From a virus: a DNA stretch of 29,094 bases. The notes under the pieces are model-generated. The model was given only the letters and a program-made list of their open reading frames with translations. It was not told the DNA's origin and did not search any database. The stretch spans positions 1-29,094 of the IMG/VR virus record IMGVR_UViG_3300037137_000598; one strand, given 5' to 3'. The position numbers and the translations under genes are program-made. Below are positions 3,953 through 18,338 of the stretch, piece after piece. Positions within the stretch are counted from its first letter, which is position 1, and the number at the start of each line of letters is the position of its first letter.

Positions 3953-4263
3953 GCTGCGTCGAGGACGACTTCGGTTCCGTCGGCGGGCACCTCGATGCCC
4001 TCCCGCGGCTCGCCCGTTGCCTCACCGATCAGCGTCTCCTGCACGTCGAGGTACGTGTCGGCGCTGACCTCGACCGACACGGCCTTCGGCTCCGGCTGGA
4101 CGACGGTGCCACTGATGAACGTCGCGTTGCGGACCGGCACCACGAGGTACTCGCCCGTGTCCGGCACCACTGCCTTCCGCGCGCTATGCGGATTGCTCGC
4201 GTTCGCGTGCCCGGCGATGAACCAGCCGTCGCCTGTCTTTCGCAGGACGATGTAGTGGGTCAA
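3949..4263 (-). CDS. Small phage protein of unknown function, TTG start
   Basis: A 104-residue protein, mostly beta strand: HYIVLRKTGDGWFIAGHA at the N-terminus, an ARKAV helix, then GEYLVVPVRNATFI. The style is familiar from small actinobacteriophage early proteins of unknown role, but I cannot name it. The start is a TTG at 4263 overlapping the upstream TGA (TTGA). An AGGAGG seven bases before it supports this rare start. Confidence 0.7.
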   Translation of the reverse strand: MTHYIVLRKTGDGWFIAGHANASNPHSARKAVVPDTGEYLVVPVRNATFISGTVVQPEPKAVSVEVSADTYLDVQETLIGEATGEPREGIEVPADGTEVVLDAA

Positions 4264-4625
4264 CTTGCCACCTCCTGTAGCCAGGCTTCGATCTCGCGGA
4301 TCGCCCTGTTAGCGATCTCGCGCTTGATGATGAGATACGGCTCGACTGCACTCAGCAGCGCATGTACGTCACGCCATGTCCTCGCCACCCACTGCCACCC
4401 TGGCTTCCGTGCCAGCGGATTCGTCAGATCGTGGACGTGACCTCCGAACTGGAGCAGCCATTCGATCAGCTCCGGGCTGGTACTGGCGATGCTCACCGTC
4501 CAGCGCCGCGGCCGATCTCTGTTCAACCGCGAGATGCTGCCCTCACCGTCGATGATGCCCGCCAGGTATGCCAGCTCGACTTCCGTCGTCGGCAAGCTCA
4601 GCGCGACAGGGTGAGGGTGCGTCAT
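4260..4625 (-). CDS. LAGLIDADG-type homing endonuclease, single motif
   Basis: A 121-residue protein with one LAGLIDADG-like signature, LAYLAGIIDGEGSI (19-32), including the acidic residue that coordinates metal. A beta region (RRWTVSIASTS), the helix PELIEWLLQFGG, then WQWVARTWRDVHALLSAVEPYLIIKR and a C-terminal helix follow. This length and the single motif fit a half-site enzyme that acts as a homodimer. It lies between two genes joined by stop/start overlaps and disrupts neither, so it is free-standing rather than in an intron or intein. It could be a mobile homing gene or domesticated. Confidence 0.85.
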   Translation of the reverse strand: MTHPHPVALSLPTTEVELAYLAGIIDGEGSISRLNRDRPRRWTVSIASTSPELIEWLLQFGGHVHDLTNPLARKPGWQWVARTWRDVHALLSAVEPYLIIKREIANRAIREIEAWLQEVAS

Positions 4626-8900: not shown

Positions 8901-10088
8901 CTAGCGGGCGATGGCCGCCCACTCACGCTCCGGCATTGCGACCAGCGCGCCACCCAGGCGCTCCATCTCGGCCTGCCGGTCGAACCCGTCGGCGTCCTTC
9001 GCCGCGGCGGTCACGGCGTTCACCATGCCCCACTGCGTGAGGTCGCCGCCGGTGGCGAGATGCCTGAGCACGCTGGCGGCCTCGTTCTCGCTGAGGTCGA
9101 TCCGCTTCGCCAGCGTCTCGGTCGCGCTCACCGGATTGTCGATGGTCGTGCCGGTGCGGGCCTCGCGCATGGTCCGCACGATCTCCCCGAACGTCACGTC
9201 GCTGAGTGCCGCGGCGACGGCGTCCCGCACCTTCATGAAGAACGCGCGGTCGTCCGCTGCCAACGTGTCGTCCTGGTAGATCGCGTAGGCGCTCTCCTCC
9301 TGCTCACGCCCGACGTGGTACCGGCTGAGGCTGCGGTCACTGATGACCAGCCCGTTCAGGCAGCGGAGCCTCCAGATGAACGGCGTCACGCTGAGCGCGC
9401 CCGCCCCCACCTCGGAGTTGCGAATCTCCACGCCTGCCTGCACCACGTCGCCGCCGCCCTCCGGCCCGATCACGTGGTTCGTCGGGTCGATGTCGATGTC
9501 GGCGGTCAGCTCCGGCAGGACGGCCCTGATGTAGAGCCGCTCATCCGTGAGCGCCGCGACGTGGAAGCGCAGCCTGTCCTCTCCGAAGTCCTGGAACACG
9601 GGCACGACGGCGTGCGCGAGCAGCTCGTCATTGTCCAGGCGGCGGTAGCGGTTCGACAGGAACGCGCGCACGCGCCCGTCGATCATCCGCACCATCCGCG
9701 TCTCCGGCGTCTTGAGCAGCCAGTGCTGCACGTTCGTGTCGAGGAGCTGCGGGGCGGCCCCCCGCATTCGGTCGTAGTACTTCGCCGGGATGCCTAGCCG
9801 CTCCCTGATCTGCCGGTGCGCGTACTCGTTCACCGGCCCTCCGCTGACGCCGTCGTGGTCCTGCGTGTCGAAGGTGAGCAGCGAGTAGTGCTCGTCGCTC
9901 GCCCCCAACACGCCGGTCGCCTCGTCGTACGTCGGCTGCTGCATGGTCGTGAACGTCATGCGTCGGGTGTCCACGATGTAGTCGGCCTTCGTCTCCGCGA
10001 GCGTGAGCAGCCTCGCGGTCAGGTCCTGCAACGTGCCGTGCTCCTCTTGTCGGATTCGCTGCACGCTGGAATGCTCCATTACGGTCAT
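8901..10088 (-). CDS. DUF932 family phage/plasmid protein
   Basis: A 395-residue protein matching DUF932, a family widespread in phages and plasmids with no settled function. Visible signatures are LGIPAKYYDRM (about 97-107), WLLKTPETRMVRMIDGRVRAFLSNRYRRLDN (shown here by its key parts WLLK and RAFLSNRYR), and a C-terminal region with VTPFIWRLRCLNGLVI followed by a helical tail. Its length is normal for the family. It lies next to an ERF annealing gene, as DUF932 genes often do, which hints at a recombination or replication-linked role. The start ATG overlaps the upstream HNH stop, with GGAGG seven bases before. Confidence 0.85.
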   Translation of the reverse strand: MTVMEHSSVQRIRQEEHGTLQDLTARLLTLAETKADYIVDTRRMTFTTMQQPTYDEATGVLGASDEHYSLLTFDTQDHDGVSGGPVNEYAHRQIRERLGIPAKYYDRMRGAAPQLLDTNVQHWLLKTPETRMVRMIDGRVRAFLSNRYRRLDNDELLAHAVVPVFQDFGEDRLRFHVAALTDERLYIRAVLPELTADIDIDPTNHVIGPEGGGDVVQAGVEIRNSEVGAGALSVTPFIWRLRCLNGLVISDRSLSRYHVGREQEESAYAIYQDDTLAADDRAFFMKVRDAVAAALSDVTFGEIVRTMREARTGTTIDNPVSATETLAKRIDLSENEAASVLRHLATGGDLTQWGMVNAVTAAAKDADGFDRQAEMERLGGALVAMPEREWAAIAR

Positions 10089-10516
10089 CGGTCTACCTCC
10101 GTGGCGATGTCGATTCGTGCGTGATACGCCTCGCGCGGCTCGCCTGGCGCAGGGCCAGGTAGTCCGATCCGCTTCCGGCGCTTGTAGCGGCGCTGAGCCG
10201 CTGAGTGATCTAGCCGTCCTCCGGCGACACCGCGCGCGGTGTGGCCGCGTCTGATGTTCTCACCGACGGTGACCGGCTCTAGGTGCTCCGGGTTGATGCA
10301 GTGGCGCACGCGGCAGCGGTGATCGAGCTGCATCCCATCCGGGACTGGCCCGACCCACAACTCGTAAGCCACGCGATGCACGCCTCTCGTCCGTCCGTAG
10401 ATTCGCACCTTGCCGTAGCCGTACTGATCGAGGCCACCCGTCCACAGCCAGCATCCCGCTTCGTCGATCTGCATGCGCGCCGGGAGCACCTCTGCTGGAT
10501 CATTCGGCCTCGCCAT
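10085..10516 (-). CDS. Free-standing HNH homing-type endonuclease
   Basis: A 143-residue protein with the common phage HNH layout: CWLWTGGLDQYGYGKVRIYG, an RTRGVHRVAYELWVGPVP segment, then the metal finger MQLDHRCRVRHCINPEHLEP carrying the His, Cys, Asn and His of the active site. A basic tail with RRYKRRKRIG follows, suited to DNA binding. Such genes are typically mobile homing endonucleases between phage genes. Its start at ATG 10516 overlaps the upstream TGA (TGATG); a GTG at 10519 is also possible. Confidence 0.85.
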   Translation of the reverse strand: MARPNDPAEVLPARMQIDEAGCWLWTGGLDQYGYGKVRIYGRTRGVHRVAYELWVGPVPDGMQLDHRCRVRHCINPEHLEPVTVGENIRRGHTARGVAGGRLDHSAAQRRYKRRKRIGLPGPAPGEPREAYHARIDIATEVDR

Positions 10517-10827
10517 CACTTCCCCTCTCGGCTGTCCCAGACCGCACTCATGCGGTCGTGGTAGCCCTTCGACTTCGGGTCGCTCAGGTCATAGGCTCCC
10601 TCCTCGTCGGCGCTGACGTACCGCCCGGGCACGTCCAGCATCTCGTACTCGACCCGCGCCAGCACTCCGTGCAGGTCGCACTGCCAGGGGCCGTACTGCT
10701 GGCCCTCGGCCGTCATCGAGAGAATCTCCCGCCGCGCCAGCCCCTTACACTCCGGGCACAGCGGCAGCTCGCGCGTCTCCCACTCCAGCCGCGTATCCGG
10801 CGGCTCGGGAACCCACGGCTCAGTCAT
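10516..10827 (-). CDS. Small zinc-binding protein, 103 residues, unknown
   Basis: No family recognised. LPLCPECKGLARREIL (about 21-36) and QCDLHGVLARVEY (about 49-61) supply a CxxC and a CxxH pair, so it probably folds around one zinc ion. The rest is acidic, with YDLSDPKSKGYHDRMSAVWD at the C-terminus. It belongs to the run of tiny genes following the amidoligase and amidotransferase genes. Its start overlaps the upstream stop as ATGA, and a good GGAGGAG site precedes it. Confidence 0.7.
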   Translation of the reverse strand: MTEPWVPEPPDTRLEWETRELPLCPECKGLARREILSMTAEGQQYGPWQCDLHGVLARVEYEMLDVPGRYVSADEEGAYDLSDPKSKGYHDRMSAVWDSREGK

Positions 10828-11120
10828 GGCGCTCCTCCTTCGGTCGATTCCGTCGTGGCGCGGTCAAGTCTACCGGACACGGAGAACGGCTGCCCGAACG
10901 GGTTGATGAGCCACTCGCCCGGCTCGCCATCGACCGGCCGATACAGGATTCCGTCAATCCGCTTGCCCTGCCGGTGCAGATCGAGCAACGCCTCGCCCAG
11001 GCTCACGTCGTCGGCCCCGCCCAGGCACTTCGGCGCGCCGGTACGGTAGCCGGTCGCGTCGAGCCGGTAGATGCGGAACGGCGTCTCGCTCAGGTCGCCC
11101 GCGTGCTCGTGCTCGTCCAT
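10824..11120 (-). CDS. Small unknown protein, 98 residues
   Basis: The start ATG at 11120 overlaps the preceding TGA. The protein has a beta-rich N-terminal part (FRIYRLDATGYRTG), a helix (VSLGEALLDLHRQGK) and a strand (DGILYRPVDGEPGEWLINPF). I do not recognise it. The DNA encoding its last residues carries a partial copy of the leader words seen before the amidoligase gene (see the repeat at 10842-10868). Confidence 0.65.
   Translation of the reverse strand: MDEHEHAGDLSETPFRIYRLDATGYRTGAPKCLGGADDVSLGEALLDLHRQGKRIDGILYRPVDGEPGEWLINPFGQPFSVSGRLDRATTESTEGGAP
10842..10868 (-). repeat. Partial third copy of the phage leader words
   Basis: On the minus strand CTTGACC (10862-10868) is followed closely by GCCACGACGG and AATCGACC (10842-10859), then GGAGGAG and the ATG of the 103-residue gene. 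The amidoligase leader has CTTGACT, GCCACGAAGG, AATCCGACC and AGGAGGA in the same order, with more sequence between the first two. This copy overlaps coding sequence of the preceding gene and lacks the -10 region, so it is probably not a working promoter. Confidence 0.45.
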
Positions 11121-11404
11121 CACATACCTCGTCTCATCGTCGTCGTCACGATCCACTCCTCCTCGTTCTGCTGGTTCACCTTCAGCGCGTAGATGCGCTC
11201 GCCGTCCTCCGTCCACACGTACAGGCTCGTGCCGCGTCGGGCCAGCCCGACGCTGAGCCGGTCGGTCGTGAGCCGTCCTGCCGCCAGCGCCGCGCGCACC
11301 TCGCGCTCGATCCGCACCGTGTCGAAGCGCGGGAACCTCTCCGCCGCCCGCCACATGGCGTGATCGGTCACGTAGATCGGAAGCTCGACGGTCAGATCGC
11401 TCAC
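11120..11404 (-). CDS. Small protein resembling the DUF4258 / RelE-like fold
   Basis: A 94-residue protein from GTG 11404 (GTGA overlap). The layout VTDHAMWRAAERFP (12-25), EREVRAALAAGRL, then GTSLYVWTEDGERIYAL and EEEWIVTTTMRRG resembles DUF4258-type proteins. These share the small barnase/RelE-like beta sheet and the early H-A-x-x-R-x-x-E-R motif. In toxins this fold cleaves RNA, but many family members are not shown to be toxins. There is no obvious antitoxin partner, though the adjacent 43-residue basic gene could be one. Function is unproven. Confidence 0.65.
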   Translation of the reverse strand: MSDLTVELPIYVTDHAMWRAAERFPRFDTVRIEREVRAALAAGRLTTDRLSVGLARRGTSLYVWTEDGERIYALKVNQQNEEEWIVTTTMRRGM

Positions 11405-11532
11405 CCTTTCCTTTTCGCATATGCCAAGGCAACCTTGTGGGTCACGGACGAGCGCCGGAGGTTTAGGTAGCCCTGCCGCTGGGCCTCGGTCAGCTTCGCG
11501 ATCTCGCGGCGCTGGGCTTCGCTGATCTTCAT
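11401..11532 (-). CDS. Very small basic protein, 43 residues
   Basis: It starts at ATG 11532, overlapping the upstream TGA as ATGA. It is highly basic and helical: MKISEAQRREIAKLTEAQRQ and a Lys/Arg-rich end (AYAKRKG). A longer open frame continues upstream, but that part is the shadow of the Cys-rich gene. It may be a nucleic-acid binding peptide or a partner of the following DUF4258-like protein; both ideas are inference. Confidence 0.55.
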   Translation of the reverse strand: MKISEAQRREIAKLTEAQRQGYLNLRRSSVTHKVALAYAKRKG

Positions 11533-11702
11533 AGCTGCCTCCGTGCCCGCCGCTGCGCCGCCCGGGCCGCCGGTGTCCAGCAGCCGTGCCCGGGCCAGCA
11601 GTAGCGGTTGCCGGTATGCGAGCTGAACACCCACTGCTCGTGCGGCAGCTTGCGCCCGCACTGCCCGCAGCAGTAGACGCGCGTCGTCGTGGTGCTCGCC
11701 AT
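11529..11702 (-). CDS. Cys-rich mini-protein, 57 residues
   Basis: It starts at ATG 11702, overlapping the stop of the amidotransferase gene, and ends in an ATGA overlap with the next gene, so translational coupling supports it. VYCCGQCGRKLP (9-20) and YCWPGHGCW (34-42) give a likely zinc site. The tail is Arg- and Ala-rich. No family recognised; it could be a small zinc-ribbon protein that binds RNA, DNA or a partner enzyme. Confidence 0.65.
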   Translation of the reverse strand: MASTTTTRVYCCGQCGRKLPHEQWVFSSHTGNRYCWPGHGCWTPAARAAQRRARRQL

Positions 11703-12700
11703 CAGGACCAGCTCCTCGGCACGTACATATCGTCGGCCTCCAGCAGCTCCTCGTCAGCGAGGCTCACGCCGTAGACCTCCTCGAACGCCGACCGGTAATC
11801 GACGCCGGTGTAGCGCATGAGGTCGCGTACCTCCTCCTCCATCCACGGCTCGCGCTCGACCAGCACCGGGGCGAGGTAGTCGTCCACCGGCGCGTCCAGC
11901 GTGAGCTGCCGGGTCACCGTCGGCGGGATGGTCGGGCTGATCCGCGGTGCGGACCAGCCCTTGCCCTTCGCCTTCCACGTCTGCTTCGGCCGCGGCTTGA
12001 CGACGCGGATCGTTGTCGTCTCCACCTTCCCGTTCACGCGCACCATCGTCCACTCCGGCACCTCGTGCCACTTGCCCTTCGGCACGCGCCCGAAGGTCAT
12101 GGCGCAGGCGGCCTCGATGGCTCTCCGCGTGCTGGCCCAGATGACCAGCTCGGTCGTGACCAGGTAGTGCAGCGGGTAGCCCTCCGTCCGGGCGAGCAGC
12201 AGCTCCTCCGGATGCTTCTCATCGACGACCGCGAAAGCCGCCCCACCGTCGAGGAGGTCGATGGCCTCCGCGGCGTGGTCCCATCCGGCGTAGCTCAGCA
12301 GCGCCGGGATGATCTCGCTGTCCACCTTCGCATGCCGCTTGAGGCCGAAGGCATCGAACAGCTCGGTCGCGTTGTAGATGGTGCCGTTGTGCACCGCCGC
12401 CATCCCGCCGTTGATCTGCGGGTGCGCGTTCATCACGTCGTCGCGTGCGCCTACGGTGGCGAAGCGTGTATGGAGCAGCAGCGTCTTGACCTCGTTCCTC
12501 ATCGCCTTCCGGCCGCGGACGAACCGGTGCGCTGGCTTCACCTCGCGCTGGAGGTGGCACTTGCCGTTCGGCATGAGCGCCAGCAGCCCGGTCGCGTCCG
12601 TGCCTCGGTTCTCGATTGCGAGCAACAGGCTGTCGGCCAGTCGCCCGAGCTTCGGGATCATCGCGTCTCCGCGTCTATGGACTCCTGCGATTCCACACAT
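11702..12700 (-). CDS. Stand-alone class II glutamine amidotransferase
   Basis: A 332-residue protein from ATG 12700 with GAGGAG upstream; removal of Met1 would expose the nucleophile Cys2 in MCGIAG. All class II (Ntn) amidotransferase landmarks are present: NRGTDATG (31-38), HTRFATVG (77-84), NAHP (91-94), VHNGTIYN (103-110) with the oxyanion Asn-Gly, and VDSEI (126-130). Such domains hydrolyse glutamine to release ammonia. No sugar isomerase, asparagine synthetase or purine-transferase domain follows; the C-terminal 110 residues are short and acidic. It must therefore pass ammonia, or act on a glutamine-like amide, with another protein. The amidoligase-family gene two positions upstream is the obvious partner. 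Confidence 0.9.
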   Translation of the reverse strand: MCGIAGVHRRGDAMIPKLGRLADSLLLAIENRGTDATGLLALMPNGKCHLQREVKPAHRFVRGRKAMRNEVKTLLLHTRFATVGARDDVMNAHPQINGGMAAVHNGTIYNATELFDAFGLKRHAKVDSEIIPALLSYAGWDHAAEAIDLLDGGAAFAVVDEKHPEELLLARTEGYPLHYLVTTELVIWASTRRAIEAACAMTFGRVPKGKWHEVPEWTMVRVNGKVETTTIRVVKPRPKQTWKAKGKGWSAPRISPTIPPTVTRQLTLDAPVDDYLAPVLVEREPWMEEEVRDLMRYTGVDYRSAFEEVYGVSLADEELLEADDMYVPRSWS

Positions 12701-12702
12701 CT

Positions 12703-12981
12703 CTACTGCTCCTCTCTGTCGTCGTCGTTCGGGTTCAGAATCTCGACCAGCCGTGCCCGCTCCAGCTCTACGAACAGCGTCTCGGGGTCGGCCAGCGAGT
12801 CGATGAATGTCCCGCTCCAGCGGATCGCCCGCTTGCCAAGGACCTGACGGAACTCGTCCTCGTCCCAGGCGTGCCACTGGCTGAGCCGGACCTTGTCCAG
12901 CAGCTCCTGCCAGTCCGGTGCCGAGTCCACGTGGCCGTTCGACCAGCGGACCCGTACCGGTGTCTGCGTCGTGTTGGTCAT
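12703..12981 (-). CDS. Small unknown protein between amidoligase and amidotransferase, 92 residues
   Basis: A short acidic protein with a beta N-terminus (TPVRVRWSNGHVDSAPDWQE), a helical middle (ELLDKVRLSQWHAWDEDEFR) and a long polar C-terminal helix. GAGAGGAGA precedes the ATG, and the stop lies two bases before the amidotransferase ATG, so the three genes are probably co-translated. No catalytic motif is visible. Because it sits inside the amidoligase/amidotransferase unit it could be a carrier, a substrate or an adaptor for the pathway; this is inference. Confidence 0.7.
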   Translation of the reverse strand: MTNTTQTPVRVRWSNGHVDSAPDWQELLDKVRLSQWHAWDEDEFRQVLGKRAIRWSGTFIDSLADPETLFVELERARLVEILNPNDDDREEQ

Positions 12982-13008
12982 GCTGTCTCCTCTCGTCCTC
13001 TCGTGGCC

Positions 13009-14013
13009 CTAGACCGTCGCCCAACCGAACTCGACTGCGCGTCCGATCAGGAAGGTGCGGGCCGTCTCGTTCATCCGGTCACCGAGGGTCAGGAACATCT
13101 CGCGGATCGAGGTATGCGGGGCGAGAGTCGTGCCCTGCTTCGCGGTGTCGATGATCGCCTGGCCGAACCGCAGCCAGGAGATGATCTTCTCGGCGTCGAG
13201 GGTGCCCTGGTGCTGCCGAATCTCGATGGTGCCGTGGCGGCCGTAGCTCGTCAGGTTCAGCGTCCGGTAGCGGTCGATGTAGACCCGGCGGAGGTCGCTG
13301 GTCGAACCGAGTGCGTTGACCGTGTTCATGTCGCTGCTCGTGAGACGGCGGCAGTAGCCGTTCGCGTCGTTCCGGCGGCTCTCGCTCACGAGGCCGTCGA
13401 TCAGGTTCTGGTTGTTGAACCAGCTCGTCGCGGTCGCCTTCACGGCGTTGATGTCGGCGTCGTTGATGTCGTGGTGGACGTGCGTTCCGCAGCTCTGGTT
13501 GACCGTGCCGCCGAGGGCGCGGAGAACGCGGCAGGCAGTCCGAACGGCCTGCTCGCCCTGCTCGCCCTGCAACGGCGGGGACACGATCTCCAGCCCGTGC
13601 TGGCCGCGGCCCGCGCTCAAGCTGCCGTCGCCCTTGACGCTCCAGTAGGTCGTGCCCGAGGAGCGGTCGCGGGACGGGAGGCCAGCGGCGTTCAGCGCGG
13701 CGATGATCTGGTCGCGGCTGATGCTGACCGGGAACATGCACTCAAGCTCGACGCCGAACATGCGGGCGATGCCGAGAGGGGCGGTGCGGGTCGTGCGCGG
13801 GACGCGCGGGCCAGCGGCGCGGCGGACGCGCTCGCAGCTCCGGCACTGACCGGAGTAGTGCTCGCGGCTGCTGGCGAAGCGGAAGGTGCGGGTCGCGTTC
13901 GCGTCGGCCTGGTTGAGGCTGGGAACGGCGACTCCGGTATGGCACGTGCGGCACTCCAGGTAGTAGGTGCCGGTGTCGTAGTTGTAACGGTGAAGGCGGG
14001 GCGTTGCGGGCAT
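13009..14013 (-). CDS. Amidoligase-family enzyme (COOH-NH2 ligase fold) with N-terminal zinc ribbon
   Basis: A 334-residue protein of the Amidoligase_2 type, related in fold to glutamine synthetase and gamma-glutamylcysteine ligase. Landmarks run in order: FGVELE (86-91), whose acidic pair would bind metal and ATP; WSVKGDGSL (124-132); HGLEIVSPPL (139-148); CGTHVHHD (175-182); and RHGTIEIRQHQGTLD (259-273). Family members are predicted to use ATP to join a carboxylate to an amine. Before this core, C21/C24 and C57/C60 form a zinc ribbon, perhaps for substrate or partner binding. It is first in its operon, with promoter TTGACT-17-CATGAT and AGGAGG before ATG 14013. The next-but-one gene is a class II amidotransferase, supporting an ammonia-using amide pathway. 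The substrate is unknown. Confidence 0.88.
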   Translation of the reverse strand: MPATPRLHRYNYDTGTYYLECRTCHTGVAVPSLNQADANATRTFRFASSREHYSGQCRSCERVRRAAGPRVPRTTRTAPLGIARMFGVELECMFPVSISRDQIIAALNAAGLPSRDRSSGTTYWSVKGDGSLSAGRGQHGLEIVSPPLQGEQGEQAVRTACRVLRALGGTVNQSCGTHVHHDINDADINAVKATATSWFNNQNLIDGLVSESRRNDANGYCRRLTSSDMNTVNALGSTSDLRRVYIDRYRTLNLTSYGRHGTIEIRQHQGTLDAEKIISWLRFGQAIIDTAKQGTTLAPHTSIREMFLTLGDRMNETARTFLIGRAVEFGWATV

Positions 14014-14224: not shown

Positions 14225-14635
14225 CTAGCTGTCCGGCGGTACTGCCGGGCCTGCGTCGGCCGCTCCTCCGAGCACTCCTCCGGCGCTCGGAAGCGGCAGC
14301 CCGAGGTCCTGCAAGCTGCCGTACATCGAGTTGAGCAGCGCGGCGAGCATGACTACCCAGATCGCCGTCGCTATCGAGCTGAGGTCCACGCCGAGCACGG
14401 CCAAACCGCCGTACATCTGCGCGAATATGTAGATCGCCGCCCACGGCAGGACCTTCCCGGCCACGTCGTCCCGCAGGAAGTTCGTGAGCTTCCCGAAGTT
14501 GAAGTGACCTCCTGCGTCGGTGCGCGGGTTGATCGCCGCGGCGACTCCGAGCACGATGTCGAAGCCGACGAGGGCGAAGATGGCTACGAGCTGCTGGTCG
14601 TGAAGCAGCCTCTGTAGTGCCTCGTTCAGCGTCAC
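14225..14635 (-). CDS. Holin
   Basis: A 136-residue membrane protein with three likely membrane segments: about 17-34 (VAIFALVGFDIVLGVAAA), about 62-82 (VLPWAAIYIFAQMYGGLAVL) and about 86-105 (SIATAIWVVMLAALLNSM). A loop with NFGKLTNFLRDDVAGK follows segment one, and the C-terminus is flexible and Gly/Pro-rich. The FDIVLGV...GKL...FL pattern resembles phage holins that follow endolysins in high-GC phages. It would form membrane lesions that release the endolysin at lysis. GTG 14635 is preceded by GGAGGAGG. It is the last gene before the terminator. Confidence 0.8.
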   Translation of the reverse strand: MTLNEALQRLLHDQQLVAIFALVGFDIVLGVAAAINPRTDAGGHFNFGKLTNFLRDDVAGKVLPWAAIYIFAQMYGGLAVLGVDLSSIATAIWVVMLAALLNSMYGSLQDLGLPLPSAGGVLGGAADAGPAVPPDS

Positions 14636-14687: not shown

Positions 14688-16157
14688 CTAGAGCAGCGGT
14701 ATGCGCGCCGCCTTCGCCACTGCCTCGATCTTCGCCTTCGCGTCCGCGCTCCCCTTCGGAGACGACACGCCGAGGTGCGTATGTGAGCGGCCCGGGTCGC
14801 CCGGCCAGTTGCCCACGAGCGCGATGACCTGACCGACCTCCACGATCTGACCCACCTTCACAATCCTGCTCCCGTAGTGCGTCGAGAAATACTCGTACCC
14901 GTCGGCCGTCTTGTAGTAGATCGTCCAGCCCCAGATGCCGATGGCATTGTTCGGAGGCAGGCTCGGGTCGTGTCCGCTGAGCCGCGTGACCTCGGCTCGC
15001 TCAACGGCATAGACCGGCGTGCCGCCCGGCGCGCAGAAGTCGATGGCCCAGTTCACTTGCGGCAGCCCGGCCGTCTGATGCGGCCCCTGGCAGACCTGAG
15101 ACAACGTGCCCGCGGGATGCGGGTAGCACAGCTTGAGCGTGTCGGCGCGCACGTACTTGAGCGCGACTCCGTCCATCGCCCACTCGCCCGCGTGCGGTCC
15201 CTGCTCCAGCTTCTCGGCGCGTAGCGCCAGCCACGTTCCCTTCCCGTAGTCGCCGGTCGTCGTCAGGTGGACGGATCGCTGGTACGCCTTCATGGCATCG
15301 CGCAGCGCGGTGCCGTAGTCGTCCGTCTCCTCCCCCAGTTTCTGATCGAGCAGACGGAGCCGGATCATCCCCCGCTTGAGTCCCTTCACGGTCGAGTAGT
15401 CGCGCGTCTGCTTCGCGCCCGGGCCGAAGCACGGGCCGGTGTACGGAAAATGCTTGAGCGTGAGCATGGGAACCTCCGGTGGGATCGGTGGCTTAGGCGG
15501 CGTCGGCGGCATCTGCGGAACGGTGTCCTTCCACTCGCTCCAGTCTGTCACGTTGTCGGCGGTGTAGAGGCAGTGCGCCACGCTCGCCGGGTACGCAGAG
15601 CGCGGCGATGTCGTGGAGTACAGAAGCGTCACGCGCTTTGCGCCCTCGCGGAAGGCGTGGTCGATGCACCGCTGGTATTCGTCGAGGTACATCTGGCCGT
15701 TGCCCTCCAGCGGGAACATCTCCAGCGCCAGGTACGCGAACGCGACGTGCTGCCAGCCCTGCTCATTCTGTACCCACGGCAGCGTCGGCATGTGCACCGG
15801 CTTGCCGTACGGATTCACCCAGAAGTCGAGGAGGTAGCCGCCGATCTCCTGTAGCGAGAGGTGGTCGTCCACCACGTCCTCGACGTTCGGGCCGATGAGG
15901 TCGGCCTGCCAGTCCACGGCGACTCCGAGTAGGTAGGTCAGGTCGTCCATCGTCCGCACGTGCATCCACGGACCGTGCGGAATCCCCGCCTGCCGGTACA
16001 GCTTCCGCTGGTAGTCCCACACGGTCGGGTCGCGGGCCACGTCAACGCCCACGTTGAGCGTCGCCCAGCTCACTCCTGCGGCCTTCTGCTCTCCGACGTT
16101 CTCGACGTTGCCTCCTGGCCGTCGGAGCAGCGTGCCGGTGCCGAACAGCAGCTCCAT
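14688..16157 (-). CDS. Modular endolysin with M23 peptidase domain
   Basis: A 489-residue protein. Residues 1-210 look like a TIM-barrel glycosidase-type domain (GPWMHVRTMDDLTYLLGVAV at 62-81, LALEMFPLEGNGQMYLDEYQ at 143-162, RVTLLYSTTSP at 175-185), but no clear GH25 acidic pair is seen. A proline linker (213-230) leads to a peptidoglycan-binding domain (about 255-320; ALRDAMKAYQRSVHLTTTGD). An M23-type metallopeptidase follows (about 360-465): AIDFCAPGGTPVYAV, STHYGSRIVKVGQIVEVGQV and SHTHLGV supply Asp373, His427, His459 and His461. The position of the usual first zinc ligand is Asn369. It would cut host peptidoglycan at lysis, and a holin follows. The start ATG overlaps the upstream TGA. 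Confidence 0.88.
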   Translation of the reverse strand: MELLFGTGTLLRRPGGNVENVGEQKAAGVSWATLNVGVDVARDPTVWDYQRKLYRQAGIPHGPWMHVRTMDDLTYLLGVAVDWQADLIGPNVEDVVDDHLSLQEIGGYLLDFWVNPYGKPVHMPTLPWVQNEQGWQHVAFAYLALEMFPLEGNGQMYLDEYQRCIDHAFREGAKRVTLLYSTTSPRSAYPASVAHCLYTADNVTDWSEWKDTVPQMPPTPPKPPIPPEVPMLTLKHFPYTGPCFGPGAKQTRDYSTVKGLKRGMIRLRLLDQKLGEETDDYGTALRDAMKAYQRSVHLTTTGDYGKGTWLALRAEKLEQGPHAGEWAMDGVALKYVRADTLKLCYPHPAGTLSQVCQGPHQTAGLPQVNWAIDFCAPGGTPVYAVERAEVTRLSGHDPSLPPNNAIGIWGWTIYYKTADGYEYFSTHYGSRIVKVGQIVEVGQVIALVGNWPGDPGRSHTHLGVSSPKGSADAKAKIEAVAKAARIPLL

Positions 16158-16645: not shown

Positions 16646-17221
16646 TCACCGCACGAACGCGAGGCCCGCCCGGGCGAAGTGGTTGTGCGGGTTCCGGTTG
16701 AGAGCAGCGCGCGCTCGTGCCTCCCTCGTGAACTCCTCGTCGTAGCGGAAGCCTGCCGCGGCCATCGCACCCTTCCAGTACGCGGCGGGCTGGCAGTTGA
16801 CGTGATGGTGCCCCGGCTGCCCCGGCTCGGCGTGCGTGAGGAGCACGCTGTCGGCGGCGCTGAACGTCTCCAGGAAGTTCGGGACGTGCTCCTCCTCGAC
16901 GTGCTCCACGAACTCGCACGACCAGGCGAGTCCGAAGTGGTAGGGCAGCTTGAGCGGACCCTGCGCGTAGTCGTGGCAGACGATGTCCTCGCGCCCCTGG
17001 TCGATCCCGTCCACTCCGAGCACGCGGCAGCCGCCGCTGGCGAAGTAGTCGAGCGCATGGCCCTCCCCGCAGCCCACATCGAGCACCGACTTCACTCCGC
17101 GCGCGAACACGAGCCAGTCCCACAGGTCGGGGAAGTAGGTCGCCGGGTCGCCACCCTTGATGTAGCCGCCGAGGTGCGGCTGCGCCTGGTCGGCGTAGAA
17201 CTCAGGCGCGAGTCCCGGCAT
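16646..17221 (-). CDS. SAM-dependent methyltransferase
   Basis: A 191-residue class I methyltransferase. Motif I is VKSVLDVGCGEGHALDYF (43-60), motif II has VLGVDGID (67-74), a later acidic position is VCHDYAQGPL (81-90), and FGLAWSCEFVEHVEEEHV (96-113) is the usual motif IV region of small-molecule and sugar methyltransferases. A His-rich loop GHHHVN (137-142) and a WKGAMAAAGF helix follow. It overlaps the glycosyltransferase gene upstream by 20 bases, so the pair probably act in one pathway, for instance methylating a sugar added to a virion protein. The substrate is not readable. Confidence 0.85.
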   Translation of the reverse strand: MPGLAPEFYADQAQPHLGGYIKGGDPATYFPDLWDWLVFARGVKSVLDVGCGEGHALDYFASGGCRVLGVDGIDQGREDIVCHDYAQGPLKLPYHFGLAWSCEFVEHVEEEHVPNFLETFSAADSVLLTHAEPGQPGHHHVNCQPAAYWKGAMAAAGFRYDEEFTREARARAALNRNPHNHFARAGLAFVR

Positions 17222-18338
17222 ACCAACCTCGGTCCCACAGCGTCCCGAGCCGCGTGAACCAGTCGGCGTACATCGGGCCTACGGCATCCAGCGAGAAGCG
17301 TCTGAGCGCGGCCTTCCGCACCACCTTCGGCTTCATCGCCATCGCCCGCTCGGTCGCCGCGCAGGCCTCCGCGAGCGTGGTGAACCGCAGCTCGTCGGGC
17401 ACCGTGTCCACGAACGCTCCGAAGTCGGTCGAGACGGCCGGAGTCCCGCAGAGCGGCCCTTCCACAGCCACTGCTCCGAACGGCTCGATGTAGAGCGTCG
17501 GGACAAGGAGCGCCCGCGCTCGGCCCATCAGCTCGTTACGCTCGGCCACGCCGACGGTGCCAACGTAGTGAACGTCTCCCTCCAGCCGCGAGCCGTCGTG
17601 GCACTCGATCAGCCCCTCGCTGCTGCGGGCGACGCCGCTGCCCGCGAAGTAGACCGGCAGCTCCAGCTCGCGGCCGATCTCGGCGGCGATCTGGATTCCC
17701 TTCCGCGCGATCATTCGACCGACGAAGCAGAGGTAGTCGTCCTTCCGGTTGTGCAGCGACCACTCCTCCGGGGCAAAGAAGTTAGGGATCACGGTGTCGT
17801 AGAAGCGGCCGGTCGCCTGGCCCCACTTGCCGTACATGAAGTGCCGCCAGGCGTTCGACTCGAAGCAGATGTGCGGGTGATCGGCCATGCTCTTGTCCGA
17901 GATCATCACGCCGTCGTAGCCCGCGGCCCACTCGACCGTCTGCGCCTGCGGGAGCGCCTCGTAGATCGGCTTCATGGCGAGGCCTCCGGTGAGCAGCACG
18001 ATGTCACCCCTCTCGTAGCGGACGCCGATCTCCCCGATGGCTCGGGCGTTGATCGTGCGGTAGGAGAAGTCGGTGGATGACCAGCTCCCGGCCACGATGG
18101 GCAGCATGTTCGCGTCCTCGTCGCCGTACCACTGGCGCATCTCCGCATCGGTGAACAGCGGCACGAGGTCGACGCCCGGATCGACCTCGGAGTGCTCGCC
18201 CCCGTACAGCGTGATCGGCCAGCCGAGCGCCGTCATCATCGTCAGGAACTTCGCCGTCTTGGTCGTGAACGCGCACACCGTTACGTCGCGGGAGACGTGC
18301 GCGTGCGGGAGGGCAACGAGGTGAAGGGTAGGACTCAT
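17202..18338 (-). CDS. GT-B glycosyltransferase (family 4-like)
   Basis: A 378-residue protein of the GT-B fold. The nucleotide-sugar domain is clear: DYLCFVGRMIARKGIQIAAE (201-220), ELPVYFAGSGV (226-236), HYVGTVGVAERNEL (257-270) and the E-x7-E motif EPFGAVAVE (285-293) followed by GTPAVSTDFGAFVDTV. The N-terminal acceptor domain has SRDVTVCAFTTKTAKF and ALGWPITLYGGEHSE. It transfers a sugar, with retention as family 4 members do, to an unknown acceptor. It lies between a tail-tip gene (ATGA overlap) and a methyltransferase within the virion operon, so glycosylation of a virion or tail protein is the simplest idea. Confidence 0.88.
   Translation of the reverse strand: MSPTLHLVALPHAHVSRDVTVCAFTTKTAKFLTMMTALGWPITLYGGEHSEVDPGVDLVPLFTDAEMRQWYGDEDANMLPIVAGSWSSTDFSYRTINARAIGEIGVRYERGDIVLLTGGLAMKPIYEALPQAQTVEWAAGYDGVMISDKSMADHPHICFESNAWRHFMYGKWGQATGRFYDTVIPNFFAPEEWSLHNRKDDYLCFVGRMIARKGIQIAAEIGRELELPVYFAGSGVARSSEGLIECHDGSRLEGDVHYVGTVGVAERNELMGRARALLVPTLYIEPFGAVAVEGPLCGTPAVSTDFGAFVDTVPDELRFTTLAEACAATERAMAMKPKVVRKAALRRFSLDAVGPMYADWFTRLGTLWDRGWYAGTRA

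Follow-up and report, generated by a model that had tools for sequence, protein, structure and literature searches.

A small protein family, p92, tied to the amidoligase gene in phages and bacteria

With which partners, and on which targets, do phage amidoligases act? Phage annotations have named these enzymes for years, and their suggested function, a change to the host wall that protects against superinfection, stands as a proposal only. The question is raised anew by an IMG/VR virus record (IMGVR_UViG_3300037137_000598; 29,094 bases, 67% G+C, classed as possibly incomplete), which derives from a virus of bacteria and was analysed over its whole length, hereafter the window. An initial annotation of its sequence had gathered into one cassette an amidoligase, a 92-residue protein (p92), a stand-alone class II glutamine amidotransferase (GAT) and five tiny proteins. 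All eight open reading frames (ORFs) are present on the minus strand at 10516-14013, and their G+C contents at third codon positions (GC3) of 0.82-0.93, similar to those of the neighbouring DUF932 gene (0.94) and endolysin gene (0.88), support real coding.

Here we report that p92 represents a conserved family whose genes accompany that of the amidoligase in phages and bacteria. We lean, with modest confidence, towards reading the window as a phage amide-forming module composed of the amidoligase, p92 and the GAT, with p92 as a dedicated partner of the amidoligase. If such a small "hypothetical" partner is needed, assays of an amidoligase alone could fail for that reason.

Linkage of p92 to the amidoligase gene

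Single-sequence scans of viral contigs with the window amidoligase, GAT or p92 recovered zero relatives, and p92 alone gave no match in the phage collection and viral contigs searched; relatives in the viral contigs were found by scanning with an amidoligase alignment. Small proteins resembling p92 occur among the neighbours of phage amidoligases, and a profile built from three seeds was iterated over the 5,848 ORFs of 91 phage/viral loci. It matched (E<0.01) in 69 of these loci, every match being encoded on the same strand as the amidoligase and downstream of it, either as the next gene or with the GAT or cyclotransferase gene in between. The family is made of ~80-aa proteins, and the window p92 scores 3e-18 with the profile that it helped build.

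Eighty bacterial genome loci, absent from profile building, served as an independent test set. They yielded 57 matches at or below 4.8e-7, distributed over 55 loci, the next match lying at 0.71, and no match below 1e-6 was located off the amidoligase strand. Fifty-three of the 57 end at most 500 bp downstream of the amidoligase, a zone to which 2.1% of the ORFs belong, and the remaining four comprise two matches just beyond this zone and two second copies upstream. Across viral and bacterial loci, the start codon of p92 often overlaps the stop codon of the amidoligase (offsets of -3 or 0). Because many loci are related, amidoligases were grouped at 60% identity, which left p92 in 69 of the 92 groups, a cyclotransferase in 32 and a GAT in 24, with p92 distributed over most of the amidoligase tree. 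At the scale of whole genomes, 13 of the 14 p92 matches in 12 bacterial genomes picked for their amidoligase fell at amidoligase loci, and 395 Bacteroidota genomes not picked in this way held only three matches, one of them at an amidoligase locus already known and the other two lacking any amidoligase within about 3 kb. The p92 family thus occurs occasionally on its own.

The bacterial loci carried p92 only (55), GAT only (18) or both (0). A mutual replacement of p92 and GAT in bacteria was considered and set aside, as the GAT-only loci form one supported clade and may therefore reflect a single event. At Bacteroidales loci such as L119, L132, L153 and L168, the amidoligase is followed by a GAT-like protein of ~170-185 aa starting with MC-V/I-I-x-x-KP.

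The linkage also extends to Arthrobacter phages (Laroye, Salgado, LiSara, Ottawa and Kovu), whose amidoligases are 34-43% identical to that of the window over the aligned part and are directly followed by a GAT, the relative order seen in the window. Gene 1 of Laroye (KU160654.1; L003, L179) is a p92 homologue reduced to its C-terminal half, and joining the ends of the record restores a single open frame that reaches 58.8 bits with the p92 profile. Searching with this joined sequence identified a homologue in 14 of 14 Arthrobacter records carrying this amidoligase; in 12 of them, Laroye and eleven others, it begins at base 2 of the record. There the frame spans the genome ends and was for this reason overlooked by annotators, an example of how such genes go unannotated. 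The association of amidoligases with class II amidotransferases in phages, mentioned in the initial annotation, recurs in these phages as well as in published cassettes.

Predicted enzymes, candidate reaction and role of p92

The 334-aa protein belongs to the Amidoligase_2 enzymes and has a predicted glutamine-synthetase fold. It matches PF12224 with 107.2 bits for a cut-off of 22, its best PHROG is PHROG 2443 "amidoligase enzyme" (2.5e-42), and the FGVELE, GTHVHHD and TIEIRQ motifs from which it was first recognised are all present. AlphaFold placed a glutamine-synthetase-fold domain at residues ~84-331 (pLDDT mostly ~90-98). Foldseek comparison of this model with the PDB ranked YbdK structures first, then Dop and glutamine synthetases, and also matched PafA; VIA-align gave Z scores of 13.7/13.2 for YbdK, ~12-13 for glutamine synthetases and 12.7 for a plant glutamate-cysteine ligase. 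The fold on which the initial annotation had staked its interpretation is thus supported by the predicted structure; a search of solved-structure sequences with the amidoligase sequence returned nothing. E89, E91, H178, H180, R213, E264, R266 and H268 are invariant or nearly so in the alignment, with W124, D129 and N253 as further conserved positions, and fold and conserved residues together point to ATP-driven amide formation. The Cys4 N-terminus, a putative zinc ribbon by its motifs, is real but sporadic. Of the 72 viral-set amidoligases with a located FGxExE motif, five have two CxxC motifs in the N-terminus, the near relative L012 among them; the bacterial set has no such case. The putative ribbon noticed earlier is not supported as a core feature.

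The GAT (332 aa) matches GATase_6 (67.5 bits for a cut-off of 27) and PHROG 14519 "glutamine amidotransferase" (1.8e-34). It starts with MCGIAG, Cys2 following directly after Met, and Pfam detected no synthetase domain in it, in agreement with its first description as an intact Cys2 class II enzyme; a tail of ~120 residues past the N-terminal nucleophile (Ntn) domain is without a Pfam match. C2, R79, N105, G106 and D127 are invariant between the window GAT and four Arthrobacter homologues, and from general family knowledge we take R79, N105/G106 and D127 to be glutamine-binding and oxyanion residues. Judged from its sequence, the GAT retains the residues of an active glutaminase. The GATs of the window (11702-11800) and of the near relative L012 (6145-7251) share a short helical C-terminal stretch that looks UBA/CUE-like by eye (EEEVRDLMRYTGVDYRSAFEEVYG; EEAITSLMRQGCSRAVAESIIY), without profile support. 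In phage C75C1 (L008:6702-7598), a single 298-aa protein, annotated as a cyclotransferase only, combines an N-terminal GAT-like Ntn domain with a gamma-glutamyl cyclotransferase (GGACT, 2.7e-21), and these two functions are therefore tied together.

In the module that we favour, the amidoligase would use ATP to activate a carboxylate, in a gamma-glutamyl-phosphate-like form comparable to those of YbdK and glutamine synthetase, before joining it to an amine. The GAT would split glutamine and provide ammonia or glutamate, and p92, presumably non-catalytic, would most likely act as a subunit or adaptor positioning the substrate or stabilising the amidoligase. The cyclotransferase adjoining the set in many relatives could take off gamma-glutamyl links, and these relatives suggest gamma-glutamyl chemistry. 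The target may be a wall peptide of the host or else a small amine, the evidence favouring neither.

The same genes could alternatively form a gamma-glutamyl writer-eraser pathway on free amines, the GAT-like protein being a product-trimming Ntn amidase and not an ammonia source. Such a pathway would fit the YbdK-like fold of the ligase, the frequency of the cyclotransferase among the amidoligase groups, its fusion to a GAT-like domain in C75C1 and the absence of GAT from many cassettes. However, the window GAT keeps its glutaminase residues and no cyclotransferase was detected in the window record, and we regard this pathway as rather unlikely here.

What p92 itself may do was approached through its fold. 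AlphaFold, provided with 36 relatives, predicted the order beta-beta-alpha-alpha-alpha-beta with a pLDDT of 88. A PDB fold search with this model gave no match at E<=0.001, the best VIA-align match was AcrIIA15 (Z 3.2, within the chance range), and the nearest predicted viral structures were uncharacterised phage proteins; this lack of a PDB match for a predicted model falls short of proving that the fold is new. No named family was returned by Pfam or NCBIfam, PHROG 16392 (function unknown) covers two of the 36 family members, and a search of solved-structure sequences gave chance-level matches only. The TIGR02220 phage C-terminal domain was matched at 9.5e-5, well under its cut-off and within the chance range. 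The TIGR02220 and AcrIIA15 matches, together with the p92-like genes found apart from any amidoligase, could hint at a DNA- or RNA-binding operon regulator or an anti-defence protein whose link to the amidoligase would be merely positional. Yet neither match rises above chance, and a linkage to one enzyme maintained across phages and phyla despite reordered neighbours would be unusual for a regulator, which makes this role rather improbable.

The initial annotation had also envisaged p92 as a carrier. The amidoligase would then put a group on p92, or p92 on a target, as in the Pup/PafA or LysW systems, and p92 is indeed small, folded and encoded beside a glutamine-synthetase-fold ligase whose model matched PafA and Dop. 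Known carriers display a conserved terminal carboxylate, whereas the relatives of p92 end in 18 different C-terminal residues, the commonest being Glu (24/127), and the positions that hardly vary, R51 and F69 (window numbering), offer neither a carboxylate nor a Lys. Because the C-termini are unconserved, a carrier role appears quite unlikely, and we hold as highly unlikely a phage-borne conjugation system in which p92, as the amidoligase substrate, would be joined to targets or loaded with a group, with the GAT as helper and the cyclotransferase of relatives as remover. The weight first given to the 92-residue protein is hence justified by its conservation as a partner, and its covalent carrier function is not.

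Several observations weigh against the module favoured here and against p92 as a dedicated partner of the amidoligase. Three p92-like genes have no detected amidoligase nearby (L178:3351-3575, L177:3473-3748 and L176:3344-3649), and a Bacteroidales clade of amidoligases is without p92, with a short GAT in its place, so that p92 is not indispensable. When the amidoligase and p92 were read through the stop as one chain, AlphaFold returned two well-folded parts (pTM 0.63) whose mutual position was not confident. Moreover, the partial record gave no match to COOH-NH2_lig (PF14395), for which control genomes gave none either, and no match to RimK, the ATP-grasp type covered by the search; nor did the cyclotransferase models (PF06094, PF13772) match in this 29-kb record, which is possibly a fragment. 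As a separate observation, in L178 a distance of 11 bp separates the p92-like gene from the gene downstream of it, whose product combines DACNH and DAC (diadenylate cyclase) domains.

The operon and its neighbours

The features of the locus are collected in Table 1. The amidoligase and p92 genes are separated by a 27-bp gap and p92 and the GAT by a 2-bp gap; the GAT and p57 genes overlap by 1 nt, and 4-nt overlaps continue from p57 to p103 and on into the HNH and DUF932-like genes that follow. These overlaps extend the operon beyond the boundary drawn in the initial annotation.

Table 1. Features of the amidoligase locus and of the genes upstream of it in the window
Feature	Coordinates	Strand	Evidence or remark
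M23-peptidase/peptidoglycan-binding protein	14688-16157	minus	upstream of amidoligase
Holin-like gene	14225-14635	minus	upstream of amidoligase; score below Pfam cut-off
Amidoligase (Amidoligase_2, PF12224), 334 aa	13009-14013	minus	Pfam, PHROG, AlphaFold fold
Putative zinc ribbon, amidoligase N-terminus, CxxC-x32-CxxC (C21, C24, C57, C60)	13834-13953	minus	sequence
p92, small conserved amidoligase partner, 92 aa	12703-12981	minus	family profile, genomic position, AlphaFold
Stand-alone class II (Ntn) glutamine amidotransferase (GAT), 332 aa	11702-12700	minus	GATase_6, PHROG 14519, active-site residues
57-aa Cys-rich protein (p57)	11529-11702	minus	operon member, unconserved; 1-nt overlap with GAT stop
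43-aa protein	11401-11532	minus	operon member, unconserved; 4-nt overlap each side
94-aa protein	11120-11404	minus	operon member, unconserved; 4-nt overlaps
99-aa protein	10824-11123	minus	operon member, unconserved; 4-nt overlap
103-aa protein (p103), CPEC...CDLH motif	10516-10827	minus	operon member, unconserved; 4-nt overlap

The five tiny proteins (57, 43, 94, 99 and 103 aa) exist as first described, with Cys motifs in the 57-aa and 103-aa proteins. None of the five has detectable relatives at any of 170 other amidoligase loci, and the 57-, 94-, 99- and 103-aa proteins have zero relatives in 50,697 phage records. As far as conservation tells, they share the operon and fall outside the conserved cassette.

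Phage base-modification clusters have been proposed to include amidoligases and amidotransferases, and the enzymes of the window might likewise attach amino acids or amides to DNA bases. However, no base hydroxylase, hydroxymethyl-base synthase or base-transfer enzyme was found among the Pfam-scanned proteins of this partial record, and the cassette adjoins lysis genes, which leaves this possibility scarcely probable.

Three genes of the window, at 10085-10519, 298-1086 and 4260-4625, comprise two for HNH endonucleases and one that is LAGLIDADG-like; the gene at 10085-10519 shares 4 nt with the last of the tiny-protein genes. Between the tail genes and the endolysin-like gene, the region 16646-18338 encodes a group 1 glycosyltransferase and a methyltransferase, which possibly serve in glycan or tail modification. 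PADLOC anti-phage defence models gave no match at E<=0.01 for seven of the eight proteins, the 43-aa protein not being included.

Comparison with known systems

The nearest solved fold to the amidoligase domain is that of YbdK, a GCS2-like carboxylate-amine ligase (rmsd 3.4-3.7 over ~217 residues), with only 14-15% identity across the aligned residues. The Arthrobacter phages share p92, amidoligase and GAT with the window, but their gene order is gamma-glutamyl cyclotransferase (GGCT), amidoligase, GAT, p92, compared with amidoligase, p92, GAT in the window, and the N-terminus of their amidoligase is devoid of the zinc ribbon.

According to the sections of the literature consulted, phage cassettes with an amidoligase, an amidotransferase and a cyclotransferase were already described, with a proposed modification of peptidoglycan against superinfection (PMC5498523, PMC6256558, PMC10580990, PMC11318856, PMC11253131). 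The peptide-bond cassettes of podophages (phiEco32, LUZ24/PaP3/tf, RIO-1 and PA11) are attributed there to Iyer 2009 (as cited in PMC5498523, PMC6256558 and PMC3890496). Like the window, these podophage cassettes hold an Amidoligase_2 gene near a class II glutamine amidotransferase, and they carry the gamma-glutamyl cyclotransferase also present in relatives of the window's set. In addition they encode two further ligases, one of the COOH-NH2 type (PF14395) and one of the ATP-grasp type; searches of the partial window record for PF14395 and RimK detected neither. Their amidoligases are more distant, and the p92 profile gave nothing convincing in PaP3, RIO-1, Vibrio 1.293.O and TacPo2. In clostridial prophages, an amidoligase of PHROG 2443, that of the window, lies near a cyclotransferase and, unlike in the window, the excerpts of these accounts make no mention of a GAT (PMC11318856, PMC11253131). 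The excerpts of published accounts of phage amidoligase cassettes likewise do not mention a p92-like partner, the original comparative study (Iyer 2009) lying outside this comparison.

The p92 family offers a concrete two-gene unit for expression and a sequence handle for finding more cassettes. The pairing of an amidoligase with a class II amidotransferase in phages is already known; the new part is p92, an unrecognised conserved component of a known cassette.

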